64,000 nt of DNA. Source: Peronospora farinosa (Eukaryota > Oomycota > Peronosporomycetes > Peronosporales > Peronosporaceae). Position 1 is the stretch's first letter. Each line of letters opens with the position of its first letter. Shown piece by piece: positions 4,691-49,190 of this stretch. Location: contig CANTFK010000228.1 in NCBI GenBank assembly GCA_947646735.1, positions 62,001 through 126,000 of the forward strand. The letters are read 5' to 3'. The translations under genes and the position numbers were made by a program. The notes below the pieces were generated by a model. The model did not search any database and was not told the DNA's origin. It saw only the letters and a program-made list of their open reading frames with translations.

Positions 4691-5661
<971 letters not shown>

Positions 5662-10691: not shown

Positions 10692-10815
10692 CGTGGAAGG
10701 TCTTGAGAGATCGAGCTTGATAAATGGACGTGATGGAGCGGGGCTGTTACTCGTACTTAAAAGAAGACAACTATCACTCCTGTACTGTTTTCAGGTGCAC
10801 CACATAAACGCAATC
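10692..10815. promoter_or_regulatory. short bidirectional promoter region
   Basis: Only 124 bp separates the ATAD3 start codon (minus) from the start codon at 10816 (plus), so both promoters and 5' UTRs must share it. I see no firm TATA box. The assignment is by position only. Confidence 0.5.
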
Positions 10816-11574: not shown

Positions 11575-11599
11575 AGAAGAATGCCAAAAGTGGAATGAA

Positions 11600-12260: not shown

Positions 12261-12320
12261 GGTCAATCACTATATAACTAGAAAATTATAATTCCATTTT
12301 CGCCACGAGCAAACTGAATT

Positions 12321-14260: not shown

Positions 14261-14365
14261 TTGCGTCATTTATTCATGATCATGAAAGTAATTACAAAAA
14301 TCGAATTACTTTTACCATCAACCGCGTCTACATCAGTAATTTTTAATCCTCCAGCACCGGACTCG

Positions 14366-15451: not shown

Positions 15452-15781
15452 TCGAATGCACAAATTGCTGGGTGAGAGTGTATTCGTGTCCAGGTCTGGG
15501 GCTGCATCCAATCGACATAGAGAAGAAGACTGCGCGAGTTCACACCAGTCGTTTGTGTAGATCGTGAGCTGCTCGACGGTTTCCAAGATTGTCTAATTCT
15601 GAGTTGGTATGTCGGTTTACGATGAAGGTTTTATTTGCGTGAATATACATAAATTTAGGTTTAGAAATGTACTTGCGGCGTCTACATCGCTTGACGCTTT
15701 CTATCATATTTCTAGTTTTCTACCAATCATCTCTCTTTAAATTTGACAATAATATATATTTGGCGCTAAACACCCAAATCA
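15452..15781. other. intergenic between GOLD gene and CSTF3
   Basis: About 330 bp, AT-rich towards the right end. No gene recognised. It holds the 3' end of one gene and the promoter of the next. Confidence 0.5.
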
Positions 15782-26482: not shown

Positions 26483-26676
26483 TTAGCTAGATCATTGAGA
26501 CGTCGACGCAAGTTCGACGTCACTGTAGTATGTACTCATCTCTTGGTGTCTCCAAGTGACTGGCCGAATGCCAACGTCGTGGATCGTGATTCCACGACGT
26601 TGGCGGTGCACAAAGCGAGCGATGACCTCTCTGCACTGCTTGTGCTGTTCTTAGAGGCACAAGTGACAGTGAATTC

Positions 26677-27349
26677 TTGCCAGAAAGCGAAGAGGACGAC
26701 GGGGACGACGCGGTCGAACAGGGGTTCCCGCGCGTCATTAATGCGGTTGAACAGGGGTTCCCGCAAGTGAATGCAGTGGTTGAACCGGGGTTCCCATCTG
26801 CACCTATTGTGGTCGAGCAGGGGATCCCACAAGGGCATTGTGACGACGAGCAAGAGCTCGACAGAGATTGTGACGTGGACGGACAGGAGTCCCCACGCGA
26901 GAGCATGATGGTCGAACCGGGGTTCCCATCATCACCCACTGTGGTCGAACCGAGGTTCCCACATGGGCATACTGTGGTTGAGCAGGGGCTCCCACACGGG
27001 TTTACGGCGGCCGAGCAGGAGCTTCCGCATCAAGTGTCGACGGTCGAGTTTGGGGTACTCCCGTCCAGTGTTTCCGGCATCTTGGATGAAGACATTCAGT
27101 GCCTAGAGGGGGGTGATGGTTTATCACCTGACTGCGGTTCGCCAGCTTCGAGTAGCGACTCGAAGCACGATGGGGACAACAGCATCTAGAATTTAGCGTT
27201 GGGTTTTGTCCACGATATCGTGTACGTGGAAGGGAATCCTCAAAGGCGCCAATATATCGAGGTCGAGAGTCCTCCTCGTCATGCGTCTTCCATAACAAGC
27301 CTTTCTGGGATTTTCTGGAAGCATTTTCTACGTGACCTTAAGGGAGGCA
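26677..27349 (+). pseudogene. protease-RT linker with VEQGFP repeats, unit 1
   Basis: The frame encodes a degenerate tandem array of short units built on V-E-Q/P-G-F/L-P (26720-27010), then an acidic stretch. A TAG at about 27187, absent from unit 2, stops it. The family B element is inserted after 27349, cutting the linker in two. No catalytic motif is present. Confidence 0.7.
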
Positions 27350-27354: not shown

Positions 27355-27672
27355 TGTAACGGGCTAAGGATCCGTTACCGTCTTACACTAAAAGGGCGTT
27401 GAGGAAGCGCTCTTAATTAACTCGTAAATATAACTCTGTTTTATCTTTTGCTTTGTTTTAATTCACAGTAAGTGCGAATATGTTCCCTAGCTCATGGGAA
27501 CCACTCAATATGGAAGTCAATTTATTATTGGCTAGTTATTAGGTCTGGCACCCCAATAATAAATCAATAAGAAAATGACGCGCAGTATCCGCTAATCGGA
27601 TACTGCCCTATGCCTACTTATGTAATTATGTATTAATCCTATAACTATTTATGTAATAGGTAGACCCCTACA
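27355..27672 (-). repeat. 3' LTR of family B element
   Basis: 318 bp. On plus it begins TGTAACGGGC and ends GACCCCTACA. About ten differences from its partner at 34725 are visible by eye, so the insertion is not very recent. The complement of the polypurine tract follows on the right (27673-27690). Confidence 0.92.
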
Positions 27673-27784: not shown

Positions 27785-29239
27785 ATGGACACTAGGCGCC
27801 CACGAAACAATGTCTCTGAAAGCCAGAACTGGGAACACCAAGCGACAATCCGTAGAGAGCAGGCGCCGCAGGTCATGGATGGGGACTTGAAACCGTGGCG
27901 CTTGTATGGTCTTGAAGGTGCTGTCGATCCCGAGTCACTGGAGGTCATGAAGGACCTTTTCACGCGATACCGTACAGTGAGAGGCAAGGCGACGAACAAC
28001 GCATATACCGACGATGCGTTGCAGAGGTCTTGGTGTGCCTTCATCAGGCGCTGGAGCGCGAGCCGACGTGAAGGGACGTCCTTCACGTCCTGGTTAGACG
28101 GTCGCGAGGGAACGCGTGAAGGAACGTCCTTCACGTCCTGGTTAGACGGTCGCGAGGGAACGCGTGATGGACACGCTATTGGCGACCTGCGCCGGCGCAT
28201 CTGTCGTATGACTTGTGACGAGTATCACCTTTGTTACGTCCACATTCGGGAGGGATGTCCAACGTGCAACGTGGGCAGGTCGCGACCGGTCCGGCAGGAA
28301 TGGGACGACTTAGTGTGTGCGCGAGGCATGCCCGACCATATTCGTCCATGAATTGCCCGTTATGAGAGAAGCCTTTCGGAGCTCCAGATGTCCGAGCTAC
28401 GGCGAGTGAGAACGCGTCCTTACGATCGCCGACGGCATTCACGTAGCCGAGATCGTCAACCGTATCATCTATATGCTCCCGAGCCTCGTAATAGGTCTCG
28501 GTCTCGGAGTCGCTCGGGAGGTCGTCGTGGTTTCGTTGCTCGCGAGCATTACGGCTCGCGAGATCGAGGATGGAACCGTCAGCGTCGGTCGCGATCACCG
28601 TCTTTCTACGGGACTCGTAGTCCTCGACCACGTCCGGGACATCTTGGGACAGCGTGCTCGATGGCTCCCATGTATCGTCCGCCGGGGAATATCCCAACCA
28701 GCGAACCCTGTAATGCTTCTCGACACGCTTCTTCATGGGCGCCGAGTTGTTACTCGGCGCATAAAACTTATGATCCTCGTGATCGACAATTCGGTCGACA
28801 ATCTAGCTTCGCGCACCCGATGCATCAACTAAGGGAGGAGGAGCATCACGACGGAAGATCTCTGGCGATGGGCGCCGATTCTCGTAATCGGGCTCCTGTG
28901 CAGTCGAATGATGAGCTGCGTCTACTTCACGCTGAAGTCGAGGAATCGAAGAATGCCCTACTTGATGCTCGCGAGATGGCTGAGAGAGCTCAAGATCGTG
29001 CGGATGCTGCGACTGAGGCTGCTGAGCGGACTCGACGTGAGCAGCTGGTACTGGTTGAGCGCCTACGTCAACTTGAGAAGACTGCGTTCGGAGGACCCCA
29101 GCAGATCGAGTCTGCACGCATTCGGGCAGGACTTGGTCCCAGTCGTCGTCAACGTCGTCGTCAAGGGATGTCGTATTTCGAGCCGGCACAGAAGAGCGGG
29201 GAAGATTCGAAGGGAGATTTGCCGGCAGGTAAGCCTTGA
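27785..29239 (+). CDS. antisense accessory ORF of family B (RS-rich/coiled-coil protein)
   Basis: One frame of 485 codons on the strand opposite gag-pol, broken only by a TGA at 28349. It starts 113 bp inside the 3' LTR. Residues about 30-190 are a conserved domain (LKPWRLYGLEGA, LQRSWCAFIRRWS, GDLRRRICRM, LCYVHIREGCPTC). Then comes an Arg/Ser-rich region (RRRHSRSRDR, RNRSRSRSRSGGRRG) and a C-terminal coiled coil (AEVEESKNALLDAREMAERA) ending in RRQRRRQGMSYFEPAQK. Family A has a homologous frame in the same place. The part up to 28176 lies beyond the pol stop; the rest is antisense to chromodomain and pol tail. A 48-bp tandem duplication at about 28069-28164 repeats EGTSFTSWLDGREGTR. Function unknown; a nuclear or RNA-binding role is only suggested by composition. 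Confidence 0.7.
28176..28736 (-). pseudogene. chromodomain and pol tail of family B
   Basis: The chromodomain core KHYRVRWLGYSPADDTWEPS is followed by LSQDVPDVVEDYE. Such domains at the integrase C-terminus target chromoviruses to modified histones. The frame continues in an acidic/polar tail entirely opposite the antisense ORF. It is separated by a frame break from the integrase frame to its right. Confidence 0.8.
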
Positions 29240-30257
29240 GGCGCCCGACATAGAACGTCGGGTGCAAACGCATAGATGTAGGTATGTCTAGCGTGTAAGC
29301 GTCACCATGCACCTTAACAACCCGAAATGGGCCAATATATCTTGGCGCTAACTTATTAGCGCCCAAATTCGTCACTGAGGTGTTCGGTAATCCACTTGTT
29401 GATAACAATACTCTGTCACCTTCACGAAATATCAACATATTCTTTCGTCCTCTTCTGTCAGCATTCTCCTTTTGCTTGTCGACTGCCTCTTGTAATGCAT
29501 CACGCACAAAACGCGTGATTCCTTGTCGTAATAGTAGGAATTCGGTTACTGCAGCCGAACTTACAGGCGACGTCTTCTCCTTTGGAGCAAAATTGGCAAC
29601 GGAAGACGCGATGGAAAGCATCGCGTCAGGAGTCGATATGCCGTTGTTCACGAAATTACCAGGAATAGGTGCATCGGCAGCAACCTTATGCGCATCGTAA
29701 TTAATCATCAATAGTTTCGGCGCAATTCCATCCGTAGATACTCCCCCACCAAGTTTGTAAACAGGGTGTTCTGAAGCTGAGAGAGCAAGAAGCGCCGGAA
29801 CGCGAGGATGCCTCGCGTTGTTAACGAAAAAGGGCGTCAACCCGGTTGACGCGTGGACAGCATTGTTGATTGCAAACTCTGCAAGTGGAAGAAATGAACT
29901 CCATGACGAGAATGATGTTGCATAACTGCGCAAGACATCTTCGAGTACTCTGTTGACACGCTCCGTTTGCCCATCCGTCTCTGGATGGGCCGCCGTAGAC
30001 ATAAGAAACCGCGTGCCTAATAGCTGGAATAATTCGGCCCAGAAAGCCGAAGTGAAACGCGGGTCACGGTCCAAAACAATAGATTCTGGCAAGCCGTGAT
30101 GCCTAAAGATAAGATCAATGAAGATCTTCGCTGTCGTCTCCGCCTTAATTTTGGCGGAGACCGGAGCAAAATGCACCATTTTGCTGAATCGATCCACTAG
30201 AACCAATACGCCCGTGCGTTTCTGTTCATCCGGTGGAAGGCCAAAGATAAAATCCAT
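28803..30257 (-). CDS. integrase core and C-terminal domain of family B
   Basis: 484 residues. The rve core has the catalytic D,D,E: VLVDRFSKMVHF (Asp), IVLDRDPRFTSAFW (Asp) and AHPETDGQTERVNRVLEDV (Glu). The GPY/F-type C-terminal domain follows (LAPRYIGPFRVVKV, HPTFYVGRLKAYLP), then a polar linker. The core is open and looks catalytically complete, but it is cut off from the RNase H/zinc-binding frame by a frameshift near 30250. Confidence 0.88.
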   Translation of the reverse strand: MDFIFGLPPDEQKRTGVLVLVDRFSKMVHFAPVSAKIKAETTAKIFIDLIFRHHGLPESIVLDRDPRFTSAFWAELFQLLGTRFLMSTAAHPETDGQTERVNRVLEDVLRSYATSFSSWSSFLPLAEFAINNAVHASTGLTPFFVNNARHPRVPALLALSASEHPVYKLGGGVSTDGIAPKLLMINYDAHKVAADAPIPGNFVNNGISTPDAMLSIASSVANFAPKEKTSPVSSAAVTEFLLLRQGITRFVRDALQEAVDKQKENADRRGRKNMLIFREGDRVLLSTSGLPNTSVTNLGANKLAPRYIGPFRVVKVHGDAYTLDIPTSMRLHPTFYVGRLKAYLPANLPSNLPRSSVPARNTTSLDDDVDDDWDQVLPECVQTRSAGVLRTQSSQVDVGAQPVPAAHVESAQQPQSQHPHDLELSQPSREHQVGHSSIPRLQREVDAAHHSTAQEPDYENRRPSPEIFRRDAPPPLVDASGARS

Positions 30258-31230
30258 GCTGACCGAGCGCCAGCTTCAGTAGCAATCGGAAGAGGACGCA
30301 ATGGGGCATGTAAAGACGGCGCAGGCTTCACACGCTGACAGGTTTCACAGGAGCGCACCCATTTCTGGATGTATTTATACATTCGCGGCCAGAAGAATAC
30401 GCGAGAAATAGCTGCAAACGTCTTCTCGCGACCCAGGTGTCCGCCAGCTGGGCTGTCGTGAAATTCATGAACCAATCGGGCTCGAAGGTCGTCATCAGCA
30501 GGGACGACGACACGCGGGGAATCAAAGACGTCCATCGTGTACGTCAGCAACGGATCGTCAAGCGCGTAACGCTTGATGTTGTCGCGTGTTGGTTTCGTCA
30601 ACTTCGCGAGTAATTTTTCGCTCGGGTCCCTGAGATAGTTGATGATTCCCGCATAGAAGGAATCATTCGCGTAGGATTCAGCGATCTGAATTCGGATCGA
30701 AAGCACGGGGGTCGAAATCATCGCATTAAGCCCCAGCCCAATACAACACGCACAGGTATCTTCGTCGTCATCAACATACTCCGTTTGATAACCCATATCA
30801 CGCCGAGGATCGTAATCAGGACGACGAGAAAGCGCGTCAGCGAGAATGGTTTTCTTGCCAGGCTTGTAATGCACCACAAAATTATACTCGGCAAAAAATG
30901 ACAACCACCGTGCCATACGCTGGGACAAGTAAGGACTCTTGACGGCGGTACGCAATGATGCGTGATCTGTGTATATAGAGAACATCTTTTCGCCGAGAAA
31001 ATATACTCTAAACTTGATTAGCGCGTAACGCATAGCCAAAGTTCCTTGTCGTGTACCGGATAATTTTTCTCGGCAGGTTTCATCTGTCGTGATTGAAAAC
31101 TCACGACGCGCTCTCGATCCTCGTCATCAAATTGCATGAGAGCACATCCTATAGCGAAATTACTCGCGTCGCACACGACGTGGAATGACTTAGAGTCATC
31201 AGGTAACATCAGCACCGGTGCCTCGAACAA
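30197..31230 (-). pseudogene. RNase H and integrase zinc-binding region of family B
   Basis: Two frames overlap around 31018-31039. The first has the RNase H start (FHVVCDASNFAIGCALMQFD, NYPVHDKELW). The second continues MRYALIKFRVYFLG, YTDHASLRT and ILADALSRRPDYDP, then the integrase HHCC zinc finger (HDSPAGGHLGREKTFAAI, SCETCQRVKP). The frame break lies at the RNase H DKEL motif, where LAMRY has become LCVTR. Confidence 0.82.
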
Positions 31231-31272
31231 TCTCTTCTTTACGGAGTCGAAGGCAGATTGATGTTCTGCCGT

Positions 31273-31980
31273 TCATAACCATACTGCATCTTTCTTGAGC
31301 AAAGTCGATAATGGCTGCATTAGCTCAGCATAGTTCTTCGTATACTTATGCAAGTAATTCGCCAGACCGATCCATTGACGTAATTCAGTTTGGTTCCTGG
31401 GCGTTGGCCAGGAACAGATCGATGAGATCTTCTCAGGATCAGCGCGGGAACCTTCCTTGCTGACGTAGCAACCGAGTACTGGAATCTCGGGAGCGCAGAA
31501 GACACATTTCTTCAAATTCGCATACAATTTATTCTCGCGCATAACTTGAAACACCTGCTTCAAGTGTCGAAGGTGTACCTCCGTAGCACTGAGCTTTTGC
31601 TCAGCGCGGCTGTGAACGAAAATGTCGTCAAAGTAGCTCGGCGCAAAGTCGCGAAGTGGGCGAAGTACTTGTGTCACCATCCGATTGAACGTAGCTGGAG
31701 CATTCTTAAGGCCTTGTGGCATGACTAGCCACTCCCAAAGCATCCCGCTTGGGGTGCTGACCGCAGTGAACGGAATGTCACTGTCCCTCATGAGGATCTG
31801 ATAGAAACCGTCTGTCAGATCTATGTAGCTGTATATCTCGCTCCCGGACATGGTATTCAATACCATGTCTTTTCGAGGGATAGGCGTTTGAGCCGGGATC
31901 GTGGCGTCATTCAGCTTGTTGAAGGCGTGCACAATGCGCCAACCGCCGGTGGCTTTCTTCACACAGAGAGTCGGACTCAA
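31273..31980 (-). CDS. reverse transcriptase palm of family B
   Basis: 235 residues. It has the RT motifs TLCVKKATGGWRIVHAFNKL, YSYIDLTDGFYQILM, WLVMPQGLKNAPATFNRM and the catalytic SYFDDIFVHSRAE, then the connection LRQWIGLANYLHKYTKNYAE. The N-terminal RT residues upstream (to about 32360) are present in broken frames. Confidence 0.88.
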   Translation of the reverse strand: MSPTLCVKKATGGWRIVHAFNKLNDATIPAQTPIPRKDMVLNTMSGSEIYSYIDLTDGFYQILMRDSDIPFTAVSTPSGMLWEWLVMPQGLKNAPATFNRMVTQVLRPLRDFAPSYFDDIFVHSRAEQKLSATEVHLRHLKQVFQVMRENKLYANLKKCVFCAPEIPVLGCYVSKEGSRADPEKISSICSWPTPRNQTELRQWIGLANYLHKYTKNYAELMQPLSTLLKKDAVWL

Positions 31981-33255
31981 ATGTGGCGAGATACTCTCGC
32001 GGACATGGCCAGCCTTGCGGCGACCCTCGAAAAATTCATCAGTAGCGATGACTTGGTCGCGCGGTAACGGTCACTGCCGTGTCACGCAATATTTCGATCC
32101 TGGCACGAGATCTATCTCGTGCCGCACACCACGATCCGCCGGAAGCTCAGCAGGAATTTTCTCCGGGAAAATATCGGCGTATTCACGGGCGATATCGTAT
32201 ACAGGGTTGCCCGAAGCACGAAGAGCATCCCACGACTGTGCCGCGAAGCGTTCGTCGCGCGCTGATTTAGGCTCGGCGCTCTTCGGGCGAGCCTCCGAAC
32301 TTCTTCACTGGCTGCTTCGGTGGCTGAAACGATGCACACTTGCTCGATGTCGCCGGCCTTGAGATCCTAAAGAAAATCTTTCCATGAAAGGTCCAGAGAT
32401 GTGATATCTGCAGCAGTGCACGGTGGACTCGCTACCTCAATGTAGCGGCCACGATGTGGGGAACCCTCCACATATTCAAGCGCGCATACGGATTCCGTCA
32501 CTACGGAATCAAATGCATCAGCATGTTGACGTGAATTTCGTCGTCTCGTTGACCGGCGTGCTCCTTTCGTGCGTTTTCTCTTGCTTCTCGAGCCCCTGCT
32601 CGAGACTGGAACGTCGGTCTCATAAGAGGATGATGTACCCCCCTCTAGACGTGGGAGCTCTGTCTCCACCACGTCGTTCTCATGCGGATCCGTAGTCCGC
32701 ACATTCTCGTCAATCAAAAGCGGGAGCTCGTCTTCGACCGCTTCATTTGTTTACGGGAGCCCCTGCTCGACCGCCTCGATATTTATCGGAAGCCTCTGCT
32801 CGTCCGATGTACTTGTACGCGGGAGCCCCTGCTCGACCGCCTCGATATTTATCGGGACCCTCTGCTCGTCCGATGTACTTGTACGCGGGAGCCCCTGCTC
32901 GACCGCCATCGGGAGCCTCTGCTCGTCCGATGTGCTTTTATGCGGGAGCCCCTGCTCGACCGCCTCGCTGTGAATCGGGAACCCCTGTTCGACCGATGTG
33001 TGTGTGTGTGCGGGAACCGCTGTTCAACCGCCTCGCTGTGAATCGGGTTCCCCTGTTCGACCGATGTCTGTGTATGCGGTTACCGCTGTTCGGCCGCCTC
33101 GTTGTGCATCGGGAACCCCTGTTCGACCGATGTCTGTGTATGCGGGAACCGCTGTTCGACCGCTTCGTTCTGTGGCTCCGTCAGTGTAACGGAACATACT
33201 GCGCACAGAGGGCCATCGCTCTCTCTGTGTTGACTACTAGTCGTGGCGAGTTCGT
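31980..33255 (-). pseudogene. protease-RT linker of family B with tandem repeats
   Basis: 32690-33200 is a tandem array that on minus encodes V/A-E-Q-R/G-F/L-P units; on plus it reads GGGAGCCCCTGCTCGACCG-like repeats. A basic/polar stretch follows (32367-32717, SRSKRKRTKGARRSTRRRN) and then degraded RT N-terminal residues. Frames are broken repeatedly. It corresponds to the family A linker at 41747. Confidence 0.7.
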
Positions 33256-33798
33256 TCACGACCCTGACGTGAGGCCAATCGGATGAAGCGACCAACAAAT
33301 GAGTAAACACTTCACTGACGTCACATAAACGCTTCGTCGTTTGACGGACCGAGATAGCCAATCTATCTTCGGCTGATACCGTGACAGCCACGGTATCCCA
33401 AGTATGCAATCAAATGCATAGTTCATCTCGTGCACCAAAAATTTGTCGTTGCTATGGAAACCGTCGAAAGTGTACGGTAAAACCACTGTTTTACGCGGGA
33501 CACGTTTTGGTTGTCCATCGGCAAGTTTGACAACGATGTCACCTGGACCTTCTCGAACCGTGACAGTCGACGGGAGAAGAGACAAACAGGATGCACGAAA
33601 GAAGTTGTTGGAAGCGCCAGAATCCAACAACGCTCGAAGTGGTCGCTTCACTCCAGCGACGATGAGACTAATAATAATCAGTCTCGAATCATCGCGCATG
33701 GTGGTGGCATTAAAGTGAATATGAATCACTTTGGGGCTAGGAGCCCGAGCTGCCACCTGAGTACTCGGGGCTCCATTTATGCCAGTAGGGCGCCCCAC
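33256..33798 (-). CDS. aspartic protease of family B
   Basis: 180 residues with the catalytic LLDSGASNNFFRASCLSLL and the conserved MNYAFDCILGIPWLSRYQPK. The Trp after QPKID is retained, unlike in family A. The last residues run into the linker in a frame that differs from the repeats. Confidence 0.85.
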   Translation of the reverse strand: MGRPTGINGAPSTQVAARAPSPKVIHIHFNATTMRDDSRLIIISLIVAGVKRPLRALLDSGASNNFFRASCLSLLPSTVTVREGPGDIVVKLADGQPKRVPRKTVVLPYTFDGFHSNDKFLVHEMNYAFDCILGIPWLSRYQPKIDWLSRSVKRRSVYVTSVKCLLICWSLHPIGLTSGS

Positions 33799-33800
33799 GC

Positions 33801-34643
33801 CTACTGGAACCGCTCGTTTTTTGGCGGGACCACCGACGACACAACGTCTCCTCGTGAGACAGCTGTGTTCATAGTCACCAGCGCAGGTGCTTGACAGACA
33901 GCCGCACGATGGCCTGTTTTACCACAGCGAAAACACTTCATCGTGTTAGGATTGCGAATGTCGCGGCTTAATGATTTGCCGCGACCACGAGAGGACTCAA
34001 TTGCATCAATTTTCATTGGCTCTGGGCCAGACATCCGGGAATGTTGTGACGCTGCGTGCAGGTACGACGACGCGACAGTGTAATCCTCACGAAGCGCGAG
34101 GGCAAATGCCTCCTCGAGGGACTTTGGCTCAGCACGTGTGAGGCAGTAACGCGTCATGCCCTCTTGCATACCAAAGATAAAGACATGGACTTGTGAAGCC
34201 ATGTCAATTGGCTGCGTGGTAATGCACGAAGCAAGATGACGTTTCTTCTGCACGTAGTCACGCATCGACAGCTTGCCCTGTCGGAGTGAGAAGAAATCTG
34301 CACGCAAGCGAGATTCATCTTGAGGAAGCTCGAAAGCCAGTCGTAAATCACGCTGGATATCGTCCAGCGTAGGAAACGCCGACTCATCTACGACAAGCTT
34401 TCCGAGGGCCCATTCCTTGGCTTTGCCGGCAAGACAAGACAACAGGAAATAGACCTTGGCCGTCGGAGCGTCAATTAATCTTGACGCTATTGCAATATCC
34501 ACCTCGCGAAACCAGCGATTGAGGGGGAGACGATCCGGACCATCACCGGAGTACGTTGACGTCTCCATCTTGATAGCGTCATGGTGCGAAGTGCGCGAGG
34601 GAGTCAATACTCGCCGATTCGCTTCGGCGAGCTCGCGCACCAT
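33801..34643 (-). CDS. Gag of family B
   Basis: An intact 280-residue frame starting [17 protein letters not shown]. It has capsid residues [37 protein letters not shown] and [14 protein letters not shown], ending with the CCHC knuckle [14 protein letters not shown]. It assembles the virus-like particle in active elements. It lies 82 bp from the 5' LTR. Confidence 0.9.
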
Positions 34644-34724
34644 AAAGTTTCGCTGGAGCCACCGAAGACTCGCCCATGTTCATCTCGAATCTGGTCATTG
34701 GAAGGACCAACAAGTGCTACCAGG

Positions 34725-35045
34725 TGTAACGGGCTAAGGACCCGTTACCGTCTTACACTAAAAGGGCGTTGAGGAAGCGCTCTTAATTAACTCGTAAATA
34801 TAACTCTGTTTTATCTTTTGCTTTGTTTTAATTCGCAGTAAGTGCAAATATGTTCCCTAGCTCATGGGGAACCACTCAAATATGGAAGTCAATTTATTAT
34901 TGGCTAATTATTGGGTCTGGCACCCCAATAATAAACCAATAATAAATTGACGCGCAGTATCCGCTAATCGGATACTGCCCTATGCCTACTTATGTAATTA
35001 TGTATTAATCCTATAACTATTTATGTAATAGGTAGACCCATTACA
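34725..35045 (-). repeat. 5' LTR of family B element
   Basis: 321 bp. On plus it begins TGTAACGGGC and ends ACCCATTACA, and on minus it is followed by a primer-binding site at about 34705-34722. It is related to the family A LTR in both terminal motifs (TGTAATGGGTCTAC... and ...CCCGTTACA read on minus). Confidence 0.93.
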
Positions 35046-37494: not shown

Positions 37495-38221
37495 AATGCA
37501 TTTTTACCACTTGCTGAGTTCGCACTCAATAATGCTGTACACGCGTCAACAGGTTTGACGCCATTTATTGTGAATTTGGCTCATTACCCTCAAATTCCTA
37601 CTCTTCTTGCCGTGGGGCGACCCACGGCACCTGGTGTGGCTCCACTCTGGGGGGGGGGCAAATGGGTGATAAACAAGGATCGAGTGCAGCTCACGGTTTT
37701 TTGAGCGCGAATATAGTATCCCGATTCAAGGCAAAGACTGCTGATTCGAAGCCACGTGACGTGGCGTCCCCATTAGCTCGATGGACTGAGTAGACACTTA
37801 GTAACACGTTTTCGGGCAAGCGCTCACCTGCTGCTAACTACGCGACGGATTGATTCGGCGCGATTAATTGATGACATGGCTGTGTCAGAGGTTATAGTTT
37901 AACATTAAGCCATCACCCGTTTATACGCGATGAACTACAGTCTGCAGTCGACCAGCAGAAAGAGAACGCTGACAAACATGGCAGAAAGAACATGAGCAAA
38001 TTTGGGAAAGGTGACCGTGTATTATTATCTACGGAAGGTTTAAGGGATTCAGCGGTCACTAACTGGGCGCGAGTAAACTCGCACCACGCTTCATCGGTCC
38101 ATTCAAGGTTCTGAAGGCAATTGGCGACGCTTATACACTCGACGTCCCCTCTTCACTGCGACTCCACCCGACATTCTATGTCGGGCGGCTGAAGGAATAT
38201 CGTCCGGCTACGCTTCACGGT
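37495..38221 (+). pseudogene. degraded integrase C-terminal region, family A unit 1
   Basis: Sequence collinear with 44872-45580 of unit 2 but with many substitutions, stops and frame changes. Residues such as LAEFALNNAVHAST and the GPF/HPTFYVGRLKEYRP block are still recognisable. The run of eight G at about 37652 corresponds to a similar G-run in unit 2. Confidence 0.8.
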
Positions 38222-39688
38222 TTGGCTCCGACGCAGGCTTCAGAGGTTCGTAAGTCGAACGGCCTTTCCGTCGTGCTCGACGCGCCGATGACATGGGGAG
38301 GGGTCTCGATCTCGTCTGAACCTGACCAAGCACTTGGCGCTCCAGAACCCTTATCCGCTCGAGCAGTTCACGGTTCGACTGCCGGGTCTCACTCGAAGTC
38401 TTCTCCGCCCGGGCAGCACGTTCACTGGCAGCCTCAGCCTCCAGCCGATCATCGGCAGCTACTTCCACGGCCTGGTCAACATCGTCCTGAGCAACCAGGA
38501 CGCCAGGACTACCATCGCGAGAGCCCCCCTCCGCTTGTTGACGCGAAGGGACAGGTGCGCTGGATTGTAGACCGCATTGTGGGTCACGAGGACCCTCCAC
38601 AACCAGTACTGCAGTCGGCTCATGAGAAGCGCGGGGTTCCATCCGTGCGCAGGTACCGAGTACGTTGGGTTGGATTCCCTCCCGAGCAGGATACATGGGA
38701 ACCACGTTCCTCGCTCCTTCGCGACGTTCCAGATGTGGTTCTGTCGTATGAAGCCACGATGTCGGGCTATTCCAATGGGGGCGAGCACGAGAACGCTCTC
38801 GTGCCAAACAAGAGTGGTAAGGAGATCCACGTCGTCGAGAACGAGATCGATGACGCGAACGAGAACGATGTCGCGAACGAGAACGATGCCGTGAACGAGA
38901 ACGATGTCGCGAACGAGAACGATGCCGTGAACGAGAACGTCGTGGTGAATACATATCACGATTGCGAGGCAAGAATCGCGCAGCAGGACGGACAGGCGAA
39001 CGTGTCGCTGCCCTGCGCTGATGATTTCGCGGAGATTGACTCCGCTGTCGCGAGTGGTGCTGCCAGCGAGGCGCACCACGAATAACTGCGCTTCTTCGTT
39101 CGCTCAGACTTCGCTCATACTTTGCAATTCAACTTCTTTCGCTATCACTGAGTGGACACTCAGCGATGTGCCGTCGCCATTCGTCATGAGTTGGGCGTGG
39201 AGTCGAGTCACCTGATTGGCATCCTTCGTTGACATGGACGAAGCAGAGGCGGTCCTCCTTCCAAGCATCCTCACACACTCTTTCGCGTAGCGCGCCGATG
39301 GAGTGATCGGCGCGAAGTTCCTCTCGATCGGTGAGCCATAACTGGAAGTTGCTACCATCCTCGAGCATCCGATTCCAACGTTGGATGAAGGCGCACCAAG
39401 AACGTTGTAGAGATTCATGCTCGATTCCATCAAGAACTTTACCGCGCATTTTCGAAATCGGCGGAAGTAGTCCCGCATCGTGTACAGCGAGTCCGGAGCG
39501 TGAGCTCCGGACAAGTCGTACAGCGACCAAGGTATGAGCTGCCGCGCCATGATGCTGGTTGATGCATTCCCGCTGATGTATCTTGGGCGTCCTGCTGGAT
39601 TGGGTGTTGGGTCTCCAGACATTGCTTGTTCTTTTGTGAGCAAAGGGTTTTCGACAGTTGAGCACTCACGGTTGGTGAGTGCTGTCAT
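38208..39688 (-). pseudogene. antisense accessory ORF of family A unit 1, two breaks
   Basis: This is the same protein as 45564-47008, read on minus. The N-terminus (39688, MTALTNRECSTVE) shifts frame near 39450 into the frame that holds LQRSWCAFIQRWN and LCFVHVNEGCQSG, then meets a TGA at 39129-39131 in place of a Trp codon. The rest (38208-38972) is open for 254 residues: an RSRSRH repeat, then a coiled coil (EAEAASERAARAEKTSSETR) and the basic end RRARRKGRSTYEP. The Arg/Ser array has two more units than unit 2. Confidence 0.75.
38222..39085 (+). CDS. pol tail and chromodomain of family A unit 1
   Basis: A 287-residue open frame with a Ser/Pro/His-rich linker, then RWIVDRIVGHEDP and a chromodomain (RRYRVRWVGFPPEQDTWEPR, LLRDVPDVVLSYEA). 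It ends in a repeat of six residues (NEND-V/A-A/V units) coded by 18-bp tandem repeats at about 38850-38940. The stop is at 39083-39085. The whole frame is antisense to the accessory ORF on minus. Confidence 0.85.
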   Translation: MAPTQASEVRKSNGLSVVLDAPMTWGGVSISSEPDQALGAPEPLSARAVHGSTAGSHSKSSPPGQHVHWQPQPPADHRQLLPRPGQHRPEQPGRQDYHRESPPPLVDAKGQVRWIVDRIVGHEDPPQPVLQSAHEKRGVPSVRRYRVRWVGFPPEQDTWEPRSSLLRDVPDVVLSYEATMSGYSNGGEHENALVPNKSGKEIHVVENEIDDANENDVANENDAVNENDVANENDAVNENVVVNTYHDCEARIAQQDGQANVSLPCADDFAEIDSAVASGAASEAHHE

Positions 39689-39701: not shown

Positions 39702-40043
39702 TGTAATGGTCTACATTACACACATAGTATTACCATGAATAAACAATTACATATGTAGGCAGGTGCTGGGCCCGAATAGCAGGCACAGCGTGGTAATTTA
39801 TTATTGGTTCATTATTGGGCCTAAAGTCCCCAATATGGACCAATGATAAATTAACCTGAAATTGTGTGGTTCCCGAAAGGCGGGAACACTGTCGTATTTA
39901 TTACGACTAAAATCTTCGTAATTAGTACGAATTAAAACCAAAGTAAAAATCAGAGTTAAATTTACTTAATACCTAATACTTGGGCTTGAGTCTTCCTCAA
40001 GCGCGCGTGTAAGCTAGTGACGGTACGTTCTAGCCCCGTTACA
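39702..40043 (+). repeat. family A LTR 2 (middle, shared by both units)
   Basis: 342 bp, TGTAATGGTC...CCCCGTTACA. A polypurine tract ends at 39701 and a primer-binding site starts at 40046. It therefore serves as 3' LTR of unit 1 and 5' LTR of unit 2. It differs from LTR 3 at only a few positions. Confidence 0.93.
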
Positions 40044-40069: not shown

Positions 40070-41109
40070 ATGCCCGAGTTTGGGATGAGCGAATCGTCGT
40101 ACTTTGACGCTCCAGATTTATTTCTGGAGCACGCGACCTTCCCCCATCTTACTGGTGTTGAGTGGGATGCCCTTAATCGCCTCGCGGCGATATCGGGAGA
40201 GGCATTCGTCGCGTCGCTGATGAGATCAGCGACCCCTGACGCGCAACGTCTCGCCATACATGAGTTTATGGCACGCGAGCCAACCGGCGAGGCTTAACTC
40301 CCTCGCGCCCTTCACGTAATGAGGCCGTGAAGATGGAAACCTCCTCCTACTCTGGAGAAGGTAAGGACCGGTTGTCGCTGAATCGGTGGTTCCGAGAAGT
40401 TGATATCGCCATCGCCTCGAGACTTCTTGAGGCTCCCCAGGCGAAGGTCAACTTTCTTCTTTCCCGCCTCACCGGGAAGGCCAAGGAGTGGGCCCTTGGT
40501 AAACTCGTTGTGGACGAGCACGCATTTCCCACCTTGGATACCATCCAGGACGATCTCCGTCTTGCCTTCGAGCCACCACAAGAGGAGAAACTGGTGCGAT
40601 CAAGATTCCTGTCGATGCGACAGGGTAAAATGGCGATGCGCGACTACGTACAGATGGCTAGGCATCTGGCGTCGTGTATTATCACGCACCCCATGGACAT
40701 GTACACACAGGTGAATGTCTTTGTGGATGGTATGCGTGAGGGGCAAACCCGCTTATCGCTGGAGCGCGCCGAGCCTGCCACATTGGAGGAGGCATTCGCC
40801 ATCGCACTCCGTGAAGACTTTAGGGTCACAAAGGCCTATGCCAAACCCTCGGTCGTCAGCGTTCCCCGGCCTTCTGGCCCAGAACCTATGGAGATCGACG
40901 TTATTGAGTCGTCGGGTGACCGGCGACGTGTCTTTCATCATAAAGGTGACGCTCGCACCGGGCGTCCAATGGTTTGCTTTCGTTGTCGCAAGCCAGGACA
41001 TCGCGCGGCAGAGTGCCGTGCGCCAGCCCCATTATCGGTGCAAGTAGTGGACGCCCATCATGAGGGTGCTGTACCGGCCGCACGTCCAAAAAACGGTCGG
41101 GACCAGTAG
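40070..41109 (+). pseudogene. gag of family A unit 2
   Basis: A leader of 75 residues (40070-40297) ends in the same stop as unit 1. The Gag core of 260 residues (40327-41109) has an intact zinc knuckle, [14 protein letters not shown]. Otherwise it is as unit 1, with a few substitutions such as [10 protein letters not shown]. Confidence 0.82.
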
Positions 41110-41153
41110 GTGCAGGGCGCCCTACTGGTTGGAACGGAGGTCCGGGTCCCCCG

Positions 41154-41552
41154 GTGGCAGCCCAACCTTCCAATCCTCCTGCGTTACGCGCACGGTTAAA
41201 TGCCACCACTACGAGTGGTGATTCACGTCTGATTATTGTCAGTTTACATGTCGCCGGCGTCCGGCGACCTCTGCGAGCACTCCTGGACTCAGGAGCAACA
41301 AACAATTTCTTTCGTGAATCTTGTTTGTCGATGCTGCCTCCCAGCATTCAGGTCCGTGAGGGACCTGGCCAAGTCTTCGTCAAGCTGGCTGACGGGAAAC
41401 CACACCGCGTATCGCGGCGCGAAGTGTCGTTGCCGTATACGTTTGATGGCTTTCGCAGTAATGATGATTTCTTGGTGATCGCGATGAATTATGCATTCGA
41501 TTGCATACTGGGCATGCCATGGTTGGCACGTTATAAGCCCCAGATCGACTAA
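41154..41552 (+). pseudogene. aspartic protease of family A unit 2
   Basis: The catalytic LLDSGATNNFFRES is present. The frame ends after PQID at the TAA shared with unit 1. The following 41565-41750 is the degraded start of the linker. Confidence 0.8.
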
Positions 41553-41746
41553 TTAGCTAGATCATTGAGACGTCGACGCAAGTTCGACGTCACTGTAGTA
41601 TGTACTCATCTCTTGGTGTCTCCAAGTGACTGGCCGAATGCCAACGTCGTGGATCGTGATTCCACGACGTTGGCGGTGCACAAAGCGAGCGATGACCTCT
41701 CTGCACTGCTTGTGCTGTTCTTAGAGGCACAAGTGACAGTGAATTC

Positions 41747-42814
41747 TTGCCAGAAAGCGAAGAGGACGACGGGGACGACGCGGTCGAACAGGGGTTCCCG
41801 CGCGTCATTAATGCGGTTGAACAGGGGTTCCCGCAAGTGAATGCAGTGGTTGAACCGGGGTTCCCATCTGCACCTATTGTGGTCGAGCAGGGGATCCCAC
41901 AAGGGCATTGTGACGACGAGCAAGAGCTCGACAGAGATTGTGACGTGGACGGACAGGAGTCCCCACGCGAGAGCATGATGGTCGAACCGGGGTTCCCATC
42001 ATCACCCACTGTGGTCGAACCGAGGTTCCCACATGGGCATACTGTGGTTGAGCAGGGGCTCCCACACGGGTTTACGGCGGCCGAGCAGGAGCTTCCGCAT
42101 CAAGTGTCGACGGTCGAGTTTGGGGTACTCCCGTCCAGTGTTTCCGGCATCTTGGATGAAGACATTCAGTGCCTAGAGGGGGGTGATGGTTTATCACCTG
42201 ACTGCGGTTCGCCAGCTTCGAGTAGCGACTCGAAGCACGATGGGGACAACAGCACCGAGAATTTAGCGTTGGAATGTGTCCACGCTATCGTGTACGTGGA
42301 AGGGAGTCCACAAAGGCGCCAATATATCGAGGTCGAGAGTCCTCCTCGTAATGCGTCTTCCATTACAAGTCTTCCAGGGCTTTCCTGGAAGCATTTCCTA
42401 CGTGACCTTAAGGGAGGCACTGTGGAACAAGTGTGTCTAATCACCAACGAGGTGGTTACCGTGGCAAACGAGGAGCATATGGCGCGTCCTCAAAGCGCTG
42501 AGCCGAAGTCTGCGCGTGAAGAAAGGTTTGCATCACAGTCATGGGAGGCCCTGCGAGAGTCTGGTAACCCCGTCTACGACATTGCTCGTGAGTATGCAGA
42601 CGTGTTCCCGGACAAGATCCCGGCTGAACTTCCTGCGGACCGCGGTGTTCGGCACGAGATTGATCTCGTGCCAGGGTCGAAGTATTGTGTGACACGGCAG
42701 TGGCCGTTGCTTCGAGATCAAGTCGAAGCTATTGACGCATTCTTTGAAGGCCGCCGCAAAGCGGGTCATGTGCGAGAGAGTATCTCACCACATCGAGTCC
42801 AACCTTCTGCGTGA
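41747..42814 (+). CDS. linker and RT N-terminus of family A unit 2
   Basis: A 355-residue open stretch. It has VEQGFP-type repeats (about residues 10-115), an acidic Ser/Asp segment, the conserved [20 protein letters not shown], and then the RT N-terminus ([40 protein letters not shown]). It ends HRVQPSA at the one-base deletion shared with unit 1. It shows what the linker looked like before family B landed in unit 1. Confidence 0.82.
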
Positions 42815-44328
42815 AGAAGGCTACGGAAGGCTGGCGGATAGTGCATGCGTTCAATAAGTTGAATGATGCCACTATTCCTGCACAAACGCCAATTCCCAGG
42901 AAGGACATGGTGCTGAATTCCATGTCAGGTAGTGTCATCTTCAGTGCCATCGACTTGACCAATGGCTTTTACCAGATTTTAATGCGCCCGAGCGATATCC
43001 CACTCACCGCGGTGAGCACCCCGAGTGGAATGTTATGGGAGTGGCTGGTAATGCCACAAGGGTTGAAGAACGCTCCGGCCACTTTCAATCGCATGGTGTC
43101 TCAAGTGTTGAGACCTCTTCGGAACTTTGCCCCAAGTTATTTTGACGATATTTTCGTCCACAGTCGCGCCGAGGGCAACCTCAACGATGTCCAAGTTCAC
43201 CTTCAACACCTGAAGCAAGTGTTTTAAGTTATGCGGGACAACAAGTTGTACGCGAATCTCAAGAAGTGTGTCTTTTGTGCACCGGAGATTCCGGTGTTAG
43301 GTTGCTATGTGAGTAAATCGGGAGTTCGAGCTGATCCAGAGAAGGTGTCGTCCATCTGTTCTTGGTCCACGCCCAAGAACCCTACGGAGTTGCGCCAGTG
43401 GCTCGGCTTGGCTAATTATTTGCACAAGTATACAAAGGATTATGCTGGTTCTATCCAGCCTTTGTCGTCACTCTTGAAGAAAGACGCCACGTGGTTGTGG
43501 CGTCCCGAGCACCAAGCAGCCTTCGAAGCAGTAAAGAAGAGCCTAGCGTCAGCGCCAGTCCTGGTCCTACCAGACGATTCCAAGCCGTTCCACGTGGTTT
43601 GCGACGCCAGTGATTTTGCAATCGGCTGTGCCCTCATGCAATTTGATGATGAGGGCCGTGAACGAGTCGTGAGTTATCAGTCGCGACAGATGAAGCCAGA
43701 TGAGAAGAACTATCCGGTTCACGACAAGGAGTTATTAGCGATGCGCTATGCACTCATCAAGTTTCGCGTGCATCTCCTTGGTGAAAGTACGTTTGCTTTG
43801 TACACCGATCATGCATCGCTGCGCACAGCGATGAAGAGCCCACACCTGTCCCAACGGATGGCACGATGGCTCTCATTCTTCTCTGAGTACAACTTCGTCG
43901 TGCATTACAAGCCAGGCAAGACCAATATTCTCGCTGACGCCTTGTCACGACGTCCTGACTACGATCCTCGGACTGCTCTGAGTCGCCAGGCTACTGATGA
44001 CGAGGACGATGATGACCGATGCGCAATGTGTGTATCGCTGAACTTAACTCGGGTTACACCCGAGCCGTGTTTATTTGATGAGATCGTCGCAGCGTACAAG
44101 GGTGACTCAGATTATGCAGACATTATCGAGTATCTGCGTGCTCCCAGCGATGCTGCCCTGGGAGCATTATCCCGTACCAAGCGCGACCATATTCATCGAT
44201 ACAGTTTAGATGGCGATTTGCTTCTGTATAGCATCGACCAATTCGATGCTCCTCGCACGGTGATTGCCAATGACATGGATTTGCGTGCAAGAATCATTCA
44301 CGAGTATTTCCTGCTGGCGGCCATTTAG
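42811..44328 (+). pseudogene. RT palm, RNase H and integrase start of family A unit 2
   Basis: The RT palm 42811-43227 (catalytic SYFDDIFVHS) ends at the shared TAA. 43231-44328 holds the RT connection, RNase H (DASDFAIGCALMQFD, DKELLAMRYAL, YTDHASLRT) and the region up to the integrase zinc finger. It ends at a 7-bp deletion near 44308 that is not in unit 1 (IIHEYHDAPAGG becomes IIHEYFLLAAI). Confidence 0.88.
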
Positions 44329-44351
44329 GCCGCAAAAAGACTTTCGCGGCT

Positions 44352-45023
44352 GTGTCTCGAGACTTCTTCTGGCCCCACATGTATAAGTGGGTACGCAACT
44401 GGATCCGAACGTGCGAAATATGCCAGCGTGTGAAGCCATCTCCATCGTCACAGGCTCCCTTGCGATCGTTGCCAATTGCAGCAGAGGCCTGGAGATCAGT
44501 CTCGATGAACTTTATCTTCGATTTGCGCCCGATAGCCAAGCTCGAACAGGGGATCATATTATTTTTTGACAGATTCAGCAAGATGACACATCTCGTGCCT
44601 GTTCACGCTAAGGTCACCGCAGCAGAGACCGCGGCGCACTTCATCGACGCGGTGTTCCGTCATCATGGCCTTCCAGAAAACATTGTTTCGGACCGTGATC
44701 CGCGATTTACGTCCGCATTTTGGACATCACTTTTCGAGCTCCTCGGGACAGAACTGCTGATATCGACTGCAGCCCATCCGGAAACGGATGGGCAGACCGA
44801 GCGCGTGAACCGAGTCCTCGAAGACGTTCTTCGAAGTTATGCTACGTCATTTACAAGTTGGAGTGCATTTTTACCACTCGCTGAGTTCGCACTCAACAAC
44901 GCCGTACACGCGTCAACAGGGTTGACGCCATTTTTTGTAAATTCGGCTCGTCACCCTCGTGTTCCTACTGTCCTGGCCGTGGGGCGACCCATGGCTCCAC
45001 TCTGGGGGGGGGGGCAAATGTGA
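44352..45023 (+). CDS. integrase core of family A unit 2
   Basis: 223 residues with CEICQRVKPS (zinc finger end), FFDRFSKMTHL (Asp), IVSDRDPRFTSAFW (Asp) and AHPETDGQTERVNRVLEDV (Glu), so D,D,E is complete. The frame fails at the G-run 45003-45013, a likely homopolymer slip. Confidence 0.88.
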   Translation: MSRDFFWPHMYKWVRNWIRTCEICQRVKPSPSSQAPLRSLPIAAEAWRSVSMNFIFDLRPIAKLEQGIILFFDRFSKMTHLVPVHAKVTAAETAAHFIDAVFRHHGLPENIVSDRDPRFTSAFWTSLFELLGTELLISTAAHPETDGQTERVNRVLEDVLRSYATSFTSWSAFLPLAEFALNNAVHASTGLTPFFVNSARHPRVPTVLAVGRPMAPLWGGGQM

Positions 45024-45100: not shown

Positions 45101-46404
45101 TTGACGCCATCAGACGTGGCGTCTCCATTAGCTCGATGGACTGCGCAGACATTGATTGACCCGTCTTCGGGTAAGCGTTCCCCTACTGCCAACTACGCGC
45201 CGATTGAGTCGGCGCGACCAATTGATGACATGGCCGTGTCGGAATTTATACTCCAACGTCAAGCCATCACCAGGTTTGTACGCGACGCACTACAAACTGC
45301 TGTAGACCTACAGAAGGAGAACGCTGACAAACATGGACGAAAGAACATGAGCAAATTTGGGAAAGGTGACCGTGTATTATTATCGACGGAAGGTTTAAGG
45401 GATTCTGCGGTCACTAATCTGGGCGCGAGTAAACTCGCGCCACGCTTCATCGGTCCATTCAAGGTTCTGAAGGTAATTGGCGACGCTTATACACTCGACG
45501 TCCCCTCTTCACTGCGACTCCACCCGACATTCTATGTCGGGCGGCTGAAGGAATATCGTCCGGCTACGCTTCACGGTTTGGCTCCGACGCCGGCTTCAGG
45601 GGTTCGTAAGTCGAACGGCCTTCCCGTCGCGCTCGACGCGCCGATGACATGGGGAGGGGTCTCGATCTCGTCTGAACCTGACCAAGCACTTGGCGCTCCA
45701 GAACCCTTATCCGCTCGAGCAGTTCACGGTTCGACTGCCGGGTCTCACTCGAAGTCTTCTCCGCCCGGGCAGCACGTTCACTGGCAGCCTCAGCCTCCAG
45801 CCGATCATCGGCAGCTACTTCCACGGCCTGGTCAACATCGTCCTGAGCAACCAGGACGCCAGGACTACCATCGCGAGAGCCCCCTCCGCTTGTTGACGCG
45901 AAGGGACAGGTGCGCTGGATTGTAGACCGCATTGTGGGTCACGAGGACCCTCCACAACCAGTACTGCAGTCGGCTCATGAGAAGCGTGCGGTTCCATCCG
46001 TGCGTAGGTACCGAGTACGTTGGCTTGGATTCCCTCCCGAGCAGGATACATGGGGACCACGTTCCTCGCTCCTTCGTGACGTTCCAGATGTGGTTCTGTC
46101 GTATGAAGCCACGAAGTCGGGCTATTCCAAGGCGGGCGAGCACGCGAACGCTCTCGTGACAAACGAGAGCGGTAAGGAGATTCACGTTGTCGGGAACGGG
46201 AACGATGACCAGAACGAGAACGATGTCGCGAACGAGAACGACGCCGTGAACGAGAACGTCGCGGTGAATACATATCACGATTGCGAGGCGAGAATCGCGA
46301 AGCAGGACGGACAAGCGAACGTGTCGCTGCCCTGCGCTGATGATCCCGCGGAGATTGACTCCGCTGTCGCGAGTGGTGCTGCCAGCGAGGCGCACCACGA
46401 ATAA
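45101..46404 (+). pseudogene. integrase C-terminal domain, pol tail and chromodomain, unit 2
   Basis: 45101-45925 contains FILQRQAITRFVRDALQ, the GPY/F-type block LAPRFIGPFKVLKV and HPTFYVGRLKEYRP. A one-base loss in a C-run near 45881 (five C versus six in unit 1) shifts the frame. 45910-46404 then carries the chromodomain (RRYRVRWLGFPPEQDTWGPR) and a shorter NEND-type repeat. Confidence 0.83.
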
Positions 46405-47008
46405 CTGCGCTTCTCCGTTCGCCCAGACTTCGCTCATACTTTGCAATCCAACTTCGTTCGCGATCGCTGAGTGGACACTCAGCGATGTGTCGTCGCCATT
46501 CGTCATGAGTTGGGCGTGGAGTCGAGTCACCAGATTGGCATCCTTCATTGACATGGACGAAGCAGAGACGGTCCTCATTCCAAGCTTCCTCACACACTCT
46601 TTCGCGTAGCGCGCCGATGGAGTGATCGGCGCGAAGTTCCTCTCGATCGGTGAGCCATAACTGGAAGTTGCTACCATCCTCGAGCATCCGATTCCAACGT
46701 TGGATGAAGGCGCACCAAGAACGTTGTAGAGATTCATGCTCGATTCCATCAAGACCTTTCCCGCGCAGTTTTCGAAATCGGCGGAAGTAGTCCCGCATCA
46801 TGTCCAGTGAGTCCGGAGCGTGAGCTCCGGACAAGTCGTACAACGACCAAGGTATGAGCTGCCGCGCCATGATGCTGGTTGATGCATTCCCGCTGATGTA
46901 TCTTGGGCGTCCTGCTGGATTGGGTGTTGGGTCTCCAGACATTGCTTGTTCTTTTGTGAGCAAAGGGTTTTCGACAGTTGAGCACTCACGGTTGGTGAGT
47001 GCTGTCAT
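45564..47008 (-). CDS. antisense accessory ORF of family A unit 2 (RS-rich/coiled-coil protein)
   Basis: On minus, the start codon at 47008 touches the polypurine tract, 13 bp from the LTR. The frame is open for 397 codons to 45815, covering the conserved N-terminal domain (RQLIPWSLYDLSGAHAPDSL, LQRSWCAFIQRWN, LRERVCEEAWNEDRLCFVHV) and the Arg/Ser-rich middle (RRSRSRRRSRSRHRSRSGHR). The one-base C-run change near 45881 then moves the coiled-coil end into another frame (45564-45932, with LEAEAASERAARAEK and RRARREGRSTYEP). Restoring one base would give about 481 residues, matching family B. Residues before about 46404 lie outside pol; the rest is antisense to the chromodomain and tail. No known domain recognised. 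Confidence 0.75.
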
Positions 47009-47021
47009 GAGAAGGGGGTGA

Positions 47022-47363
47022 TGTAATGGTCTACATTACACACATAGTATTAATATGAATAAACAATTACATATGTAGGCAGGTGCTGGGCCCGAATAGC
47101 AGGCACAGCGTGGTAATTTATTATTGGTTCATTATTGGGCCTAAAGTCCCCAATATGGACCAATGATAAATCAACCTGAAATTGTGTGGTTCCCGAAAGG
47201 CGGGAACACTGTCGTATTTATTACGACTAAAATCTTCGTAATCAGTACGAATTAAAACCAAAATAAAAATCAGAGTTAAATTTACTTAATACCTAATACT
47301 TGGGCTTGAGTCTTCCTCAAGCGCGCGTGTAAGCTAGTGACGGTACGTTCTAGCCCCGTTACA
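47022..47363 (+). repeat. family A LTR 3 (right end of tandem array)
   Basis: 342 bp, TGTAATGGTC...CCCCGTTACA. The right flanking 5 bp is CTTGT, which does not match the CCGTT on the left of LTR 1. What follows is family D sequence. Confidence 0.93.
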
Positions 47364-48845: not shown

Positions 48846-49190
48846 GATCTAAAATTCGGCGCGATCTGGTACCTTAACGCGATCTGATACTCCGGTGCGA
48901 TCTAAAATTCGGCGCGATCTGGTACCTTAACGCGATCTGATACTCCGGTGCGATCTGACAATTCAGCGCGATCACTTTGGCGCGATCTAGTACTTTGATG
49001 CGATCTGAAATTCCGGCGCGATCTATTACCCTAACGCGAGCTGATACTTCAGCGCGATCTGGTACCCCGGTGCGATCTTGTACTTCGGCGCGATCTAGTA
49101 CTTTGGCACGAGCTGGTACTTCGGCGCGATCTGGTATTTCAACGCGATCTGCCAAGTCGGTGCGAACCAGTATTACAAGGCGACACAATG
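48846..49190 (+). repeat. 18-bp minisatellite with GCGATCT core
   Basis: About 19 units of 18 bp, each starting GCGATCT (variants GCGAGCT, GCGAACC) followed by a variable 11 bp. On plus it codes for hexapeptides such as RSGTSA and RSSTLA (open frame 48977-49387), so it is probably an in-frame repeat inside the family D gag. One unit near 48970 is 4 bp short, which breaks the frame. Confidence 0.85.

Follow-up and report, generated by a model that had tools for sequence, protein, structure and literature searches.

The human T-cell leukaemia virus type 1 (HTLV-1) has an antisense protein, HBZ, of its 3′ region. Reports on long terminal repeat (LTR) retrotransposons mention the antisense genes of HTLV (PMC7264820, PMC11963269) and describe antisense open reading frames (ORFs) in Grande, RIRE2, Retand, PvRetro13 and the fungal element Boty (PMC7264820). 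The Grande GENE23 protein is nuclear and its region is transcribed in antisense (PMC7264820), and the function of the plant antisense ORFs is given in these accounts as unknown (PMC7264820, PMC11963269). Here we analyze a 64,000-nucleotide stretch of the Peronospora farinosa genome (hereafter the window; the genome searched comprises 46.85 Mb in 274 contigs), in which two Ty3/gypsy families, A and B, each carry a long frame on the strand opposite gag-pol and adjoining the 3′ LTR. An earlier note on this DNA, which had also pointed to additional sense or antisense ORFs in some plant LTR elements and in HTLV-1, had proposed these frames as a conserved antisense accessory gene common to both families, and this proposal was supported by dN/dS, by other copies and by relatives elsewhere. 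As established from such comparisons, the frames constitute a protein-coding accessory gene of an oomycete Ty3/gypsy chromodomain lineage, antisense to gag-pol. An antisense ORF near the 3′ LTR is as such already known from plants and Botrytis; what is new here is that the protein family has no name in Pfam, that the hosts belong to another group and that the gene reaches deep into pol.

The family A frame was located at 45564–47008 on the minus strand, starting 13 bp from the 3′ LTR (47022–47363, plus strand, 342 bp), and a purine-rich stretch adjoining that LTR (47009–47021, plus strand) is the presumed polypurine tract. The corresponding family B frame (27785–29239, plus strand) starts 112 bp from its own 3′ LTR (27355–27672, minus strand), and each of the two window copies had, as previously noted, a single lesion. 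In family A this is a one-base slip, with the minus strand being open over 47035–45815 and the distance from the ATG at 47008 to the stop amounting to 1445 nt, compared with 1446 nt in the unbroken copy L003; in family B it is an in-frame TGA at 28349–28351. The family B copy of the window also has an extra tandem repeat of 16 codons, absent for example from L010. An upstream family A copy carries the frame as well (38208–39688, minus strand, limits projected from the second copy), with a matched part at 38523–39455 that agrees at 93% over codons 79–273 and holds one TGA. Searches of the same genome gave at least 125 match rows for the A frame and at least 154 for the B frame, with 104 of 860 and 150 of 601 candidates scored, respectively; these rows are not copy counts, as one copy may give two rows and some A copies appear among the B rows, and since copies were found through the antisense frame they give no share of elements carrying it. 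The frame is approximately 470–490 codons long in each family. Among 60 family A copies that were fetched, 19 read through to at least 450 amino acids (the 19 longest having 460–493 codons), and the family B copy L010 reads to 468 amino acids. Homologous frames were found in many other A and B copies, the absence of which the earlier note had named as a sign of chance, and homologs also occur among proteins of other species.

The overlap with the end of pol comprises 58% of the antisense gene length in family A and 76% in family B. In L003, pol ends opposite antisense codon 202, and in the window a family A pol frame holding the chromodomain (projected from L003) and tail (45847–46404, plus strand) has its stop at 46404, which is the limit of the overlap; the frame with the SH3 domain (PF24626; 45074–45925, plus strand) finishes opposite the 3′ end of the antisense gene. 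The N-terminal half had been thought to face no pol frame, which is correct for family A (codons 1–201 of 481) but not for family B, where only codons 1–114 of 468 are free and the CYVHIREGC block faces the pol tail.

Compared with known systems, Grande GENE23 and RIRE2 aORF-3R are alike in being antisense to gag-pol, adjoining the 3′ LTR, occurring in many copies and having relatives in other species; they are, however, described as lying between pol and the 3′ LTR (PMC7264820), whereas more than half of the present gene overlaps pol, and their sequences were compared with the present family through Pfam only. The antisense ORFs of Retand, reported to have TRP28 (PF04195) and Smc-type domains (PMC11963269), agree in place, strand and proposed DNA-binding role, whereas no PF04195 match at E ≤ 1 was seen in 23 relatives of the present protein. 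That scan gave no confident Pfam domain in any of the 23; nine families were matched at E ≤ 1 (the filters drop most matches above approximately 0.1), and neither PF04195, bZIP nor any gag family was among them. HBZ resembles the present product as an antisense protein of a 3′ region, here with a probable coiled coil, but differs in being a bZIP protein transcribed in antisense from the 3′ LTR, whereas antisense transcription of the present gene is a prediction. Boty, an LTR element with an antisense ORF (PMC7264820), likewise comes from a filamentous plant pathogen, Botrytis cinerea, and is likened here by its description and not by sequence. The oomycete Ty3/gypsy element Chronos (PMC5348765) also has a chromodomain at the end of pol, but its dual RNase H, with an archaeal type beside the gypsy type, has no second counterpart seen in family A, where the 546-amino acid RNase H–integrase frame of copy L019 matched only PF17919, PF17917, PF17921, PF00665 and PF09337 at E ≤ 1. 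The word antisense does not occur in the main text of the Chronos paper (PMC5348765), and literature searches, with most subscription journals outside their scope, turned up no description of an antisense gene in oomycete elements, in line with the earlier note.

The A and B proteins are 44–47% identical over the N-terminal domain, and the motifs first quoted for them were indeed present (PWxLYxL, LQRSWCAFIxRW, the CVHVNEGC or CYVHIREGC block and RRxRRxGxSxxEP). When the two families were compared as proteins, the antisense frame gave a score of 363, and none of the other 17 frame pairs scored above 168. A codon tree of eight A and six B copies, all stop-free over the stretch analyzed, gave a ratio of nonsynonymous to synonymous substitution rates (dN/dS, ω) of 0.39 over 170 codons (twice the log-likelihood difference, 2ΔlnL, of 29.2) and of 0.41 over the 111 codons that are free of pol in both families (2ΔlnL 17.8). 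With degraded copies included, these values were 0.58 and 0.60, the stop-free set being the lower.

Within family A, the 60 fetched copies were taken from the same-genome match list (in four of them the match begins at codon 2–5) and divided into 20 with frames of at least 444 amino acids and the other 40. Counting stops over nt 1–600, with the copies projected on one reference, we found 26 in the antisense frame, which was stop-free in 38 of the 60 copies, compared with 165–701 in each of the other five frames, none of which was stop-free in any copy. Maximum likelihood codon models, with the ω = 1 null fitted with kappa at its fitted value, gave ω for nt 1–600 of 0.65 for all 60 copies, 0.68 for the 20 long-frame copies and 0.70 for the other 40 (2ΔlnL 25.1, 4.0 and 15.3, respectively). 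The constraint was found in codons 46–200, a domain not opposite pol in family A (46409–46873, minus strand), with ω of 0.547 in the 60 copies (2ΔlnL 37.2) and 0.523 in the 20 (2ΔlnL 7.2), compared with 0.51 and 0.40 for integrase over the same two sets. This domain also had, in the 20 long-frame copies, the lowest divergence of 11 stretches (0.0203), followed by 0.0212 opposite the chromodomain, with 0.0471 in the leader and 0.0344 and 0.0259 in the integrase/RNase H stretches; the row labelled chromodomain in that comparison (antisense 780–1000) is misplaced, as the chromodomain faces approximately 902–1090. In all 60 copies the domain was second lowest (0.0395 compared with 0.0380). The N-terminal domain is under purifying selection. 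The dN/dS near 1 that the earlier note had taken as a mark of chance did not appear for the part not opposite pol, which was below 1 as a whole, codons 1–45 being the neutral portion of it.

Several observations nevertheless weigh against reading the frame as a coding gene under selection throughout. Mirror frames opposite SH3 and integrase gave ω of 0.57–0.63 in the 60 copies and 0.45–0.46 in the 20 without coding for anything, and low ω alone was therefore not accepted as proof. In the overlap, ω was near 1 in both frames, at 0.98 for antisense and 0.92 for pol in the 60 copies and at 1.07 and 0.84 in the 20, which is expected of double coding yet is no proof of selection there. Pairwise counts, binned by divergence, gave ω of 0.54 and 0.46 for the lower two bins and of 0.84 for the top one, which comprised 18 pairs. 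Of the 16 indels in nt 1–600, 15 were not multiples of three; nt 601–1443 had 61, of which 41 were multiples of three, and nt 1501–2898, with a slippery G run, had 222, all counted against one reference copy such that shared events were counted repeatedly. Stop-freeness of the antisense frame from codon 23 was unassociated with that of pol (p 0.79), with both frames stop-free in 14 copies, only antisense in 19, only pol in 10 and neither in 17.

The gene had been taken to start at 47008, which did not hold up well. The leader (codons 1–45; 46874–47008, minus strand) evolves neutrally, with ω of 1.00 in the 60 copies and 0.96 in the 20, and a stop at codon 21 was common to 11 of 56 copies (L021, L026, L027, L028, L030, L031, L035, L036, L037, L045 and L061); because of these two features the true start is probably downstream. 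The codon-21 stop precedes a Met by two codons, and six of the 11 copies stay open all the way from that Met 23. Unless the protein can be spared or comes from other copies, this lineage has thus multiplied without the first ATG. Of the candidate Met codons 1, 23 and 47, the last stands at the edge of the conserved domain and is kept in 54 of 56 copies, with Ile there in some Phytophthora rubi relatives. Translation would thus probably start at Met 23 or Met 47, with the exact start uncertain.

With regards to the protein, 11 aligned sequences had an invariant LQ.SWCA.I.RW block, Cys 139, 149 and 160 and Trp 171 and 187, with Cys 157 nearly so. Across the larger set of 23 sequences, the positions that stood out were just Cys 139 (invariant) and Cys 149 (at least 90%), and a zinc site of the type C-x9-C-x7-C-x2-C is for that reason only a suggestion. 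AlphaFold2 modelled the N-terminal domain as all-helical with moderate confidence, and this model had no informative match. The Arg/Ser-rich middle (approximately 46139–46381, minus strand) has 12–31 RS/SR dipeptides, and the isoelectric point was 8.9–10.8 in all 10 proteins checked. The middle has this composition although the alignment of A and B pol stops at residue 338 of 391, short of the end of the pol tails opposite it. The C-terminus is rich in Ala, Glu and Arg, with heptad-like spacing as judged by eye, and probably forms a coiled coil (approximately 45690–45856, minus strand, which is past the slip in the window copy).

Two protein searches gave nine and 12 relatives, 20 of them distinct and none with a functional name. 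The conserved family extends over several species, with the named sources being Phytophthora ramorum, P. fragariae, P. rubi, P. palmivora, P. fragariaefolia and Peronospora destructor, beside two further sources; the named relatives, all from Phytophthora and Peronospora, agree with the oomycete setting. The position of these relatives was probed by codon compatibility of protein pairs, meaning whether they could share DNA in antisense with pol, and not from their own DNA. Calibration with full consistency gave 279 (A) and 353 (B) codons for the true pairs and at most 12 for A against B. The 20 relatives were then compared with 120 pol proteins (those listed of 226 found), codon pair by codon pair, which is looser than the calibration. 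In the phase used by A and B, 98 of 2400 pairs, which are not independent as the copies are related, reached at least 30 codons, compared with a maximum of 13 in the reversed-pol control, and the longest run was 92 codons (P. fragariae P0006 with P0065 or P0062). The best run per relative was at least 28 in 15 of the 20, 16–21 in three (P0009, P0010 and P0020) and 12 in two (P0007 and P0022). A second phase gave 34 pairs of at least 30 codons (reversed control maximum 15), which may be due to frame shifts in gene models, and the third phase gave none. P0003 and P0004 paired with a Peronospora matthiolae pol protein, P0087. This indirect test supports that most of the relatives, also in Phytophthora, overlap pol in antisense.

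What such a protein might do can be proposed from its features. We give an even balance of probability to its being a nuclear nucleic-acid-binding regulator of its own element, expressed in antisense from an LTR promoter. Such a promoter, placed in the 3′ LTR, would then yield a transcript of the accessory gene, and the basic product, with its helical Cys-containing domain, Arg/Ser-rich middle and probable coiled coil, would enter the nucleus, dimerize, bind nucleic acid and regulate the expression, splicing or export of the RNA of the element, acting like the nuclear antisense protein of maize Grande or HTLV HBZ with no kinship implied. More tentatively, and rather against our expectation, the locus could be an old double-coding one of Phytophthora and downy mildews, setting the chromodomain end of integrase against the RS/coiled-coil half of a new family of nuclear regulators that gates the element by means of antisense transcription from the LTR, HBZ-like in its logic but of independent origin in oomycetes.

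A structural role in the particle or pre-integration complex, as nucleic-acid chaperone or integration partner in place of regulating expression, seems unlikely but deserves to be weighed: a basic RS-rich middle would suit nucleic-acid binding, and in both families the gene lies opposite the chromodomain end of pol, but an antisense mRNA would place its synthesis outside the gag-pol precursor and none of the 23 relatives matched a gag family. We regard it as improbable that the product derives from a captured host gene and acts on the host, e.g. on RNA silencing, and not on the element. The confinement of relatives to Phytophthora, Peronospora and the two further sources, with no confident domain match, would fit such a capture, but the same-genome match lists, read without regard to the surroundings of each hit, showed no host homolog in single copy, and the pol overlap suits overprinting better for the C-terminal part. 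It is still less probable that the antisense RNA is what matters, as a source of double-stranded or small interfering RNA, with the frame being incidental. Although small RNAs of both sense and antisense orientation are reported from Gypsy elements of P. infestans (PMC3522703), and the divergence of the domain is low overall with silent sites included, an ω below 1 already counts against this explanation, as do the constraint at codon level, the avoidance of stops in a single frame and the identity still kept between the A and B proteins over the domain. A long chance ORF was rejected given the many same-genome matches for both frames, and a by-product of pol given that family A codons 1–201 are free of any pol frame. 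Least credible, and rejected, is a mirror of a sense-strand gene with common wobble positions, as the sense frame sharing third positions, in spite of an ω of 0.66 compared with 0.65 for antisense and the similarly low SH3 and integrase mirrors, is interrupted in every one of the 60 copies (228 stops altogether) whereas the antisense frame is stop-free in 38 of them, and as the A–B protein score is so much higher in antisense. Two Gypsy elements by themselves are reported to account for 29% of the genome of P. infestans (PMC3522703), and a recent expansion of Gypsy families has been reported for spinach downy mildew (PMC11540230). A conserved antisense protein would offer a handle on the control of such elements and would furthermore be a natural case of two proteins made from opposite strands of the same DNA. 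Some ‘hypothetical proteins’ in the gene sets of Phytophthora are by the same token transposon genes.

As for the architecture of the window, two family A elements lie in tandem (24632–47363) with a common LTR at 39702–40043 (plus strand). The family A LTRs, at 24632, 39702 and 47022, are 342 bp long with 330–337 of 342 aligned bases equal (337 for the 3′ LTR and that at 39702). The first element is split by an insertion of family B in opposite orientation, the LTRs of which (approximately 27355–27672 and 34725–35044) have 309 of 320 aligned bases equal. Gag, protease, reverse transcriptase, RNase H and integrase were found in this order, flanked by LTRs, as broken pieces at 40264–45023 (plus strand) in family A, and the gag-pol pieces of family B lie at 28803–34679 (minus strand), opposite to its antisense frame. 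Both families matched Retrotrans_gag/Ty3_capsid, zinc knuckle (slightly under the Pfam cut-off in family B), protease, reverse transcriptase, RNase H, integrase and SH3_Tf2-1 in Pfam. The chromodomain (PF00385) was detected in the family A pol of L003 (E 7.9e-8) and assigned to family B by BLASTP carry-over from family A. With identities of 62% in gag, 61% in the RNase H stretch and 45% in the pol C-terminus, A and B are sister families.

Some further features of the elements and their surroundings were recorded. A run of 6–11 G bases (45004–45014 in the window, approximately 2101–2164 in L019) lies between the integrase core and the SH3/chromodomain part in 51 of 60 copies, with a frame change there in 13 of the 22 copies having one open frame on each side, making it a possible slippage site. 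Repeats with 33-bp spacing occur within gag-pol of both family A copies (26718–27024 and 41788–42094), covered by a 169-amino acid antisense open frame (26520–27029 and 41590–42099), and repeats of mostly the same spacing are found in family B (32719–33142). Past the family A 3′ LTR there are 18-bp direct repeats of the GCGCGATCTGGTA type (48906–49190). Two long frames of 382 and 712 amino acids on the minus strand (18816–22127) had no Pfam match at 1e-3. The region 5080–17238 holds host genes, by Pfam encoding a proteasome subunit, a uridine kinase/PRK family member, NPL4, an ATAD3-like AAA ATPase and a HAT-repeat (Suf/PRP39-like) protein, and at 12318–13328 on the plus strand two stretches of Kazal-type protease inhibitor domains (PF07648 and PF00050) apparently also belong to a host gene.
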